Assembly (NCBI GenBank): GCA_016795485.1
Contig: JAEUHM010000040.1
Span: forward strand, 1 to 64,000
DNA from: Verrucomicrobiaceae bacterium
Lineage (GTDB): Bacteria; Verrucomicrobiota; Verrucomicrobiia; Verrucomicrobiales; Verrucomicrobiaceae
Length of the DNA: 64,000 bases
Direction of reading: 5' to 3'
Shown: piece by piece, positions 1-64,000 of the stretch
Layout of the letters: the number at the start of each line of letters is the position of its first letter
How positions within the stretch are numbered: position 1 is the first letter of the stretch
Made by a program: the position numbers and the translations under genes
The notes under the pieces: generated by a model
The model's database searches: none
What the model saw: only the letters and a program-made list of their open reading frames with translations
What the model was told of the DNA's origin: nothing

Positions 1-315
1 GGGTATTACCACCCCCAAGGCAGGTGATAACCACCCCAAAGGGTGGTCAACGGGGGCCTGAGGGCTGGTGATGACCACCCCTGGGGGTGGTCAACGGCAC
101 CCCCGGAGGTGGTGCCCGGGACCCCTGAAGGTGGTGAGCCGGAGCCTCCGAGGTCCCGCAAGGGTGCCCGAGGGGTGCCGCACGGGTGCTCAGGGGGTGC
201 GATGAACCACCTCCAGGGCATCGACTCACCACCCCAAAGGCTCCGACGAACCACCCCTGAGGGCGCGGCTCACCACCCCGAGAGGTGGTCCCAGATACCG
301 GAAAAGCACCCGAAA
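1..315. repeat. 22-bp tandem array of palindromic units
   Basis: Units start at exact 22-base steps (8, 30, 52, 74, 96, 118, 140, 162, 184, 206, 228, 250, 272, with a decayed copy at 294). The best units begin ACCACCCC, have a 3-base spacer, then GGGTGGT and a 4-base linker, so each unit is itself a hairpin. Copies at 30, 74, 228, 250 and 272 are well conserved; those at 140-205 have drifted. The array runs off the left edge of the window, so its full size is unknown. Reading frames are open on both strands because of composition, but 22 is not a multiple of 3 and the translation looks non-natural, so I treat it as non-coding. Function is unknown. Confidence 0.85.
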
Positions 316-363
316 CGAACCATGCACCCCGAGCTGCTCCACCCTGGAAGCACTCTCGATGAG

Positions 364-387
364 GCGGACAGCAGTGTCCGCGCTCCT
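364..387. repeat. Solo REP-like hairpin
   Basis: A perfect 7-bp stem, GCGGACA (364-370) and TGTCCGC (375-381), closes a 4-base loop and is followed by GCTCCT. The same sequence pattern forms both ends of the element at 50139-50227, so this looks like a single end of the same dispersed repeat family. It lies 30 bases before the short gene at 417. Confidence 0.6.
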
Positions 388-416
388 ATTTAACAATCTC
401 TAACCACCTCAAATCC

Positions 417-61530: not shown

Positions 61531-62655
61531 CTAATCTGTTGGATCAGCCACAAGCTTCACCGAGTGAGCCTCAGCCATCGTAGGAACCTCGACCTTGCCT
61601 TGCAGATGCCGAATCACGCTTTCAGGCACCGATGCATTTCGTTCTTTGTTCTGCTTCAGGAGAGTGCTCAGAGGCGGCTCCAGATAAACGATGTCCACTC
61701 GCGCCCCATAATCGGCAAACAAGTCAATCCAACGCTTCCGAAGTTGCGCCGTGATGCTTGTTGCATTGAAGGCGAAATCACGACTCGCACGCAGATGCTC
61801 CCGGCACTTCTCCCTCGCCGTCTGAATGACCGTGCCTTGATTATCCGTTGCGTCGACATCGAGTTCTTCACGAACTGCATCGAGCGACACCACCGGAAGG
61901 TCGGGACGCTCCCGTGCTAGCCAAGTATCCTTTCCTGCACCCGGCAACCCGCTCATCATCGCCACCGTGCAGCGATAGTCTTCATGCGGCGTGTAGTGAA
62001 GGCTTGTCAGCTCATCGCGATAAAATAGGAATCGCGCTTGGTCATTAGCGAACGGATATCCAGTCAGAAAGCATCCGTGATCGGCCGCAGTGTCACGCCA
62101 CATATGAAGCATGTCTTCCGGCCTAGACATCTCCTTGCTTGTTCGCCCACGAGTGTCGGCAAGCGCAAAGAGATAGAGCAATTGATTGGACAACAACCAC
62201 GAAAGCCTAATCACCTCCCGCTCTGGATTGCCCGACTCCAGAAGGTAAGGCGGACGCCCATGGTAACGCACGAGATTGACGATGTGTTCCCTGGTGGCCA
62301 ACTCACACTTCAACTCCCGCAGCACCTCACGAGCGAGCGAGGCACCGACAATCGAGTGCTTCGGTGACCGTGTGCGCCCAGTCTCTGGATCAAGCACCGT
62401 CGTCTCAGGCTTTCCAGCATCATGCAGCAGCGCCACGAAGAGCAGCACCACCTGCTCTTCCCGACTCAGTTCGCCGTAGGCATCGAGTCGCGTCACTTCA
62501 TTAAAAACCATCGTTGTGTGAGTCCACACATCCCCTTCGGCATGCCATTCCGCGTCCTGCATGCACGTTCGCATCGGTGCCGCCCAGAACTGCCCGCTGG
62601 CCCACTTCAAGATTTCCGCATCTGCGGCCTTCAACATGTCAACCCATGTCCTCAT
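61531..62655 (-). CDS. HD-Pnk: HD phosphoesterase / 5'-OH polynucleotide kinase
   Basis: 374 aa. The N-terminal HD domain has His46, His78-Asp79 ([11 protein letters not shown]) and Asp167 (FALADTRGR); the C-terminal P-loop kinase has [12 protein letters not shown] (about 235-246). The same arrangement is known in Runella HD-Pnk, which heals RNA ends: the HD domain removes 2',3'-cyclic or 3'-phosphate and the kinase phosphorylates 5'-OH. The start ATG at 62655 overlaps the ligase stop (ATGA); a TTG at 62661 is an unlikely alternative. With the ligase it forms an RNA-repair cassette. Confidence 0.88.
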
Positions 62656-63392
62656 GACCAAATATCTGCATCGGGCGCGAGTTGATTAGGCACCATCTGC
62701 TGATGCTGCCAGTGCTCGCTCTGTTTTACCTTCTCCACAAACTCCGGGCGCACAATCTTTGCCCTGCCAGTGGCTTTCCCATCGCATTCAACACGCAAGT
62801 AAAGTCCCTCCATCCGCGAGTCGACACGACCAGTGAGCGGATTCTCAAACTGAGCCCCGAACTTGGATTCCCCAATCAACTCTAGCAGTTGCTCATGCTT
62901 GGCCTTGCCCTGATGCACCACGGGCACTGTGTGTATCCCCGTGCCATCCAGCATCGCTAAACGCCGCTCAATTGACAGAAAGCAAGACTCCGACTTATCG
63001 TAGATATCAAACTCAAAAAAGTAATGCGGTAGCGAGGTGTAATGCACGCTGTGTTTCGCATACAACCACTCGCCGAACAAAATAAAGCGATCCTCCAGCA
63101 TAAGCTCCAGCAGCGGTCGCTTCACGGCTGTCCATTGTTTGAAGAGATCATATTGAGGATGCATTCCCTCCGTGATCTCATGCCCGCGACACTGCAACAC
63201 CATCCGTCCCGTGCTCAGGAAGTGCATCCCCACATTCGTTCCATCGAGTTTTTCCTCCACCACGAGCGATGCGTCCGCAATGAACGCCGCCGAGTCCCTA
63301 GCATTCATGTGGCGATCATCATCCGTGCCCTTCGAACCAAAAAGGTGCGGGGTGCGTGGGTATTTGATGAAACTGTCTGTTGAAGCGCCCAT
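62652..63392 (-). CDS. ATP-dependent RNA ligase
   Basis: 246 aa. Nucleotidyltransferase motif I is [10 protein letters not shown], with Lys48 as the AMP-accepting lysine; motif III-like [16 protein letters not shown], motif [10 protein letters not shown] and motif V AKIVRPEF follow. The small size suggests an Rnl-type RNA ligase without extra domains. It is directly upstream of HD-Pnk, so broken tRNA or other RNA ends would be healed and sealed in sequence. The upstream region is pyrimidine-rich with no clear Shine-Dalgarno. Confidence 0.88.
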
Positions 63393-63521: not shown

Positions 63522-63905
63522 TCACTTCCCGGGCTCAAACCTCAGCACAACGGTGCCATAATCGAGCACTCGGACACCATCTGGCAACGTTTGGCGATAC
63601 TGTGAGGGAATCTGATAATGCTTGGAACGCATGTCAGGGTCGCCAGTTGGCCTAACGCGGATCAACAGTCCTGCTTTTTTCATTCGTTGGAGGTGCCTGC
63701 CCATTTGATCGGGGTGACAACCGAGCTTCTTGGCCAACTGAATCACTGGCGGATAACTCCCATCGGCCAACTCCTTGAGCACCGCGAACCGCATCGGATC
63801 AGCCATCGCCATGATCGCCGCCAGCGGTGAGACACCCGGCTGGGAGGGTTGAGAGGCCTGGGGAGCAGAGGCTGCGGGCGAAATATCGGCAGAGTCGGCA
63901 TTCAT
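63522..63905 (-). CDS. Small winged-helix regulator (ArsR-like)
   Basis: 127 aa from the ATG at 63905. The N-terminus is Ser/Pro/Ala-rich (about 1-30). The helix-turn-helix region is IMAMADPMRFAVLKELADG, then VIQLAKKLGCHPDQMGRHLQRMKKAGLL (recognition helix), then a wing. It lies upstream of the RNA-repair pair on the same strand, 129 bases before the ligase start, and may control it (inference). No metal-binding cysteines are seen. Confidence 0.75.
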   Translation of the reverse strand: MNADSADISPAASAPQASQPSQPGVSPLAAIMAMADPMRFAVLKELADGSYPPVIQLAKKLGCHPDQMGRHLQRMKKAGLLIRVRPTGDPDMRSKHYQIPSQYRQTLPDGVRVLDYGTVVLRFEPGK

Positions 63906-64000
63906 AGCGTCATTGTGGCAGCCCAGCCCCAGGCGAGTCAATGCCCCAGTGCCATCACACCCCACCCCAAAGGCCTCGATGCCAGAGCCTAGACTCGGGT

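Follow-up and report, generated by a model that had tools for sequence, protein, structure and literature searches.

Tandem arrays of 21- or 22-bp period and an associated family of ArsR-like winged-helix genes in the Verrucomicrobiae

Results

A 22-bp tandem array at a contig end

The stretch of DNA analyzed here (the window) comprises the initial 64 kb of contig C46 in a 6.5-Mb Verrucomicrobiaceae genome assembled in 61 contigs. Four features, two at each end, are central to the analysis:

1 to 293, no strand assigned: focal 22-bp array, with 13 complete units at 8 to 293 and an incomplete one cut off by the contig edge
417 to 674, plus strand: 85-aa gene (MPFDPAHPANGSS...), about 125 bp past the focal array, a candidate target gene
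63522 to 63905, minus strand: gene for a 127-aa ArsR-like winged-helix protein, a member of the array-linked clade described below
63957 to 64000, no strand assigned: 22-bp array immediately upstream of the winged-helix gene, starting at about 63957 and continuing beyond the window to about C46:64220

An earlier reading made from the sequence alone had described 13 copies at an exact spacing of 22 bp between positions 8 and 293, and this was borne out: the lag-22 match fraction of the array is 0.59, above all 500 dinucleotide shuffles (0.285 +/- 0.027, maximum 0.362). The array is intergenic, and the small gene that had been placed just after it is the 85-aa open reading frame. The same reading had set aside two common kinds of repeat, rightly in both cases. 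The diverged 22-bp units are contiguous, without the spacers of a CRISPR, and no Cas gene appears in the neighbor lists; a coding repeat is ruled out because 22 is not divisible by 3 and the arrays keep no consistent frame or strand.

The claim that each unit is near-palindromic did not hold. Only the units at 30, 74 and 272 (3 of 13) reach at least six of seven complementary arm positions, and arms match their own partners in 53 of 91 pairs, compared with 54.9 +/- 5.0 after the arms are shuffled among units (p = 0.68). Among 150 units of the array family there is no arm-to-arm covariation, and mutual information lies within half-units rather than between arms. Arm independence in these two analyses rules out hairpin or cruciform units, and the slipped hairpins proposed earlier are likewise unsupported, with no general RNA fold signal. 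The distance from GG to the next CC core is exactly 14 nucleotides in 196 of 212 stretches, and the half-units behave like words of a shared vocabulary, present in both orientations.

Related arrays in the same genome and in relatives

By BLAST, the focal array is one of at least seven related arrays that form a single sequence family in this genome, the others found being at the end of contig C3, in C20, and at C14:361k, C46:64k, C46:184k and C46:256k. The C3 end carries a copy of the focal array with one extra unit together with the flanking 85-aa gene, a block duplication at 93% identity, whereas C20 contains an intact copy, 80% identical to the focal array, inside the contig. Base 1 of the window is the end of C46 and cuts the focal array off; the C20 copy runs approximately three to four units further. 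C3 and C46 stop at the same base, and by inspection their terminal 139 bases (window 1 to 139) are identical, so the assembly break lies in the repeat. Several arrays of the focal family sit between convergent genes. Three focal-type arrays share about 80 bp of flank (CCAAAAGACGGCC..GGCCGTGAAAGATGAC) on one side (L063:7380-7470, L067:6691-6758 and L064:6396-6456), and the C20 array adjoins a RAYT-like Y1 (REP-type) transposase gene (L063:7529-8167) with REP-like palindromes on its flanks.

The description of the focal array as conserved at its ends and drifted in the middle is accurate, but each drifted unit has its conserved counterpart in the copies at the C3 end and in C20. The unit order is therefore old, the array having been duplicated as a whole block, and since the other copies share that order, the suggested expansion in more than one round is not supported for the focal array.

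With a sequence model spanning three successive units, we found clear 22-bp arrays in four relatives (G009, G013, G017 and G028) and in G048, which belongs to a different family of the order; in G016 the matches were weaker, and parsing of the units confirmed them. Absence from relatives or an assembly artefact had been named as grounds for discarding the array. Instead, six further genomes of the order have arrays of this type, and this recurrence, along with the intact copy inside C20, rules out an artefact. Flanking genes are common to several array loci across genera or families.

A winged-helix gene family with upstream arrays

Four 22-bp arrays (C46:64k, C46:184k, and those on contigs C6 of G009 and C30 of G048) lie directly upstream of members of one ArsR-like winged-helix family, and the genes at C46:64k and C46:184k are paralogs. 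The gene at C46:64k is the one at 63522 to 63905 in the window; an RNA ligase gene (window 62652 to 63392) adjoins it, and the C46:184k array has an Eco57I-like methylase on its far side. AlphaFold2 confidently predicts a winged helix for the 127-aa protein (mean pLDDT 83, with low values in its N-terminal tail), and Foldseek and profile searches lead to ArsR-type regulators (SrnR, NolR, HlyU and SmtB), the nearest PDB chains by Foldseek being SrnR, NolR and SmtB. TubR is absent among the Foldseek matches listed for this model. Pfam HTH_5 or HTH_20 scores above cut-off for the family, and no NCBIfam family, including those for ArsR, reaches its cut-off for the protein. Members consist of a single winged-helix domain of 99 to 150 aa. 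No neighboring gene is common to the 24 winged-helix loci compared, nor do these show a defense island, shared element ends, an integrase or a partner NTPase; the unit thus appears to be one gene and its array, and a conserved partner gene or defense island was rejected for these loci.

Two close relatives of these genes that lack arrays matching the 22-bp HMM, in MAG H5_VER2 (L120) and at G048:C57 (L116), have 42- to 44-bp arrays upstream instead. At E <= 1e-15, family members occur in 20 of 384 searched genomes of the class Verrucomicrobiae. Pooling the class search with matches in seven related genomes gave 57 genes, all scored uniformly for an array (lag match of at least 0.55 over 120 bp). 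We divided them post hoc, by C-terminal motif and score, into 45 family members and 12 controls (six with a C-terminal LGCC motif and six generic HTH matches), a split that the tree supported afterwards. An upstream array is present in 41 of the 45 family members and in none of the 12 controls (maximum lag match 0.46), and none of the 57 downstream stretches contains one (maximum 0.53). Many of the 45 members come from few genomes and are not independent; better evidence is the clade structure and class-wide spread. A tree of 51 proteins places the array-linked members in one clade (support 100/99) with a single array loss (L153).

Of the 41 arrays, 36 have a best period that is divisible by 21 (42 in 28, 21 in six and 63 in two), and one has a best period of 41; the four 22-bp-type members have best periods of 43, 44, 44 and 65. 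The best-matching array stretch ends a median of 126 bp before the profile match. Arrays of different family members have little sequence in common, and similarity of protein and of array are correlated only among close relatives, co-divergence beyond these being weak (Mantel p = 0.06). The cores TCCGA, CGATT and CGGAG recur over the 41 arrays, with scores that are inflated by related arrays. Dyad symmetry is not enriched in the array units of other family members, which rules out a dyad operator in all arrays.

Other arrays, the 85-aa gene and its cassettes

An 864-kb sample of the genome contains 14 strong tandem arrays, of which 12 have a period that is a multiple of 21 or 22, or approximately one per 72 kb; at this density, any one 700-bp stretch would contain an array by chance with a probability of about 1%. 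Beyond the focal family, the arrays of the genome group into further sequence families. The array of the winged-helix gene at C3:75k has two same-sequence arrays elsewhere in the genome, and that of the gene at C15:97k has one, located before a cassette of two genes, here X-MPFDP.

The 85-aa gene has 24 matches in this genome, and a 97.6% identical copy lies beside the C3 array. None of the Pfam, NCBIfam and PHROG families scores above its cut-off for this gene. Many of its copies stand second in a cassette (loci L232 to L251), behind a gene, X, that is itself preceded by a 21-, 42- or 44-bp array; X is an uncharacterized gene of 240 to 340 aa (MALWSNGTLW...) without a Pfam family. In other genomes the pairing of cassette and array is less frequent, with a strong upstream repeat in 12 of 24 cases, not all of 21/22 period. 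A REP-like dispersed element (GGCGGACAGCAGTGTCCGCGCTCC..., window 363 to 391) has many matches in the genome, some near relatives of the 85-aa gene. Arrays of similar period precede X-MPFDP cassettes that have no adjacent winged-helix gene, as well as other genes, so phased arrays are not exclusive to winged-helix genes. Two XRE-type HTH genes (L233:210-602 and C46:91284-91607) adjoin arrays of other sequence families, and other HTH families may therefore pair with arrays too.

Discussion

Proposed phased binding sites for a winged-helix protein

On balance, we favor the explanation that a small ArsR-like winged-helix protein binds the array, whose units would serve as its helically phased sites. 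Phasing, the clade-wide link to one gene family, the recurrent cores and the lack of a general RNA signal together point to a protein-DNA array. Each unit would bind one protein or dimer, and successive units would face almost the same side of the helix and so allow cooperative binding. An array at the protein's own gene would then provide strong autoregulation, and arrays elsewhere, such as the focal one before the 85-aa gene, would be further, secondary targets of the same protein. The sequence-only reading had guessed at a dimeric protein with roughly one site per two helical turns, a suggestion that gains support from the 21/22-bp phasing and the winged-helix link, with binding itself inferred. 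The protein of 63522 to 63905 is the best candidate for a binder of the 22-bp arrays; the focal array may be bound by it or by its C46:184k paralog, since the focal array and those upstream of the two winged-helix genes belong to the same array family.

Several observations count against binding sites of this kind. The units of other family members are not dyads, which is unusual for the operator of an ArsR dimer. Similar arrays also stand before other genes, among them X-MPFDP cassettes with no adjacent winged-helix gene, and protein similarity goes with array similarity only among close relatives. The main difficulty is one of distribution. Strong matches to a model of the 22-bp-type protein (A3) occur in three of the seven array-bearing genomes and in none of 46 others searched (hypergeometric p ~0.0015), but G013, G017 and G028 have 22-bp arrays and no close copy of the protein was found in them. 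Some arrays thus lack the presumed binder or use another; protein loss, incomplete assemblies or a different binder are possible reasons.

Comparison with known systems

No description of such arrays was found among open-access papers. In its working, the proposed arrangement would be most like TubR-tubC or Rep-iteron systems, in which an autoregulated winged-helix protein acts on iterated upstream sites. TubR-tubC, of type III plasmid partition (PMC5016525), is matched here by the winged-helix protein (ArsR-type by AlphaFold2 and Foldseek) and by direct repeats upstream of the gene in 41 of 45 members. Unlike that system, the flanks of 24 loci hold no TubZ-like GTPase, other partner or conserved operon, and the arrays are on chromosomal contigs, many per genome, with sequences that differ between paralogs. 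The iterons of plasmids R6K and pPS10 are 22-bp direct repeats, as are the arrays here, and are bound by winged-helix Rep proteins with a cooperativity that depends on helical phase (PMC4980987). However, Rep has two winged-helix domains and starts plasmid replication, whereas the 127-aa protein, like the rest of its family, has a single winged helix and there are no replication genes nearby. Membership in either the TubRC partition systems or the iteron replicons fails, because no partner gene lies beside the 24 loci and only one winged helix is present.

The protein resembles ArsR/SmtB regulators in fold and sequence profile. It differs in falling below the cut-off of every NCBIfam ArsR family, in having long phased arrays upstream where control ArsR genes of the same genomes have none, and in array units that are not enriched for dyads, as a short dyad-symmetric operator would require. 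Like REP/BIME elements, the arrays are intergenic and repeated over the genome, with one copy beside a RAYT-like gene; unlike them, they are strict, long tandem arrays in which palindromy is not maintained.

Alternative explanations

The arrays could instead be chromosome-organizing or centromere-like sites, which winged-helix proteins would coat and then bridge or position, with gene regulation secondary. The number of arrays per genome (12 phased in 864 kb), the wide separation of same-sequence arrays, the placement of several focal-family arrays between convergent genes and the parallel with TubR on tubC repeats are all consistent with such a role; we nonetheless consider it unlikely, as the 24 winged-helix loci have neither a partner NTPase nor a conserved neighbor.

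It is rather improbable that the arrays are spreading, expanding repeat DNA without a host function, with the winged-helix genes part of a mobile or selfish unit. Fast turnover of array sequence between members, the block duplication at the C3 end (93% identity) and the REP-type transposase gene beside the C20 array would fit such DNA. Yet the period stays at 21/22 while the sequence diverges, some loci are common to different genera and families, the 41 of 45 association is with one clade across the whole class, and no shared element ends or integrase were seen at the winged-helix loci.

It is very improbable that the array works at the RNA level, as the long hairpin of a transcribed leader. 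In favor, 22-bp-type arrays surpass dinucleotide shuffles in folding, and at the four winged-helix loci of this type the sense strand is the better-folding one. Against it, arm covariation is absent, any unit order folds equally well, fold energies equal those of a period-preserving null, the sense strand is the more stable in 20 of 41 arrays (p = 1.0) and no Rfam family matches near a gathering score; with no general signal over the 41 arrays, a structured RNA is rejected.

Implications

The arrays are probably landing strips for regulators that have so far gone undescribed. Binding of phased sites by winged-helix proteins would explain why a strict helical phase is kept while the array sequence changes. 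More tentatively, there may be a class-wide system of many distinct pairs, each of a winged-helix protein and a phased, satellite-like array, with several pairs per chromosome and secondary arrays for each. Such a system would correspond, in bacteria, to satellite DNA with binding proteins of its own, organizing the chromosome or controlling dispersed gene cassettes. Phased binding sites would turn the unexplained intergenic tandem repeats of Verrucomicrobiae into a testable regulator-array system, and the several distinct pairs in each genome could reveal a code of protein-DNA recognition.
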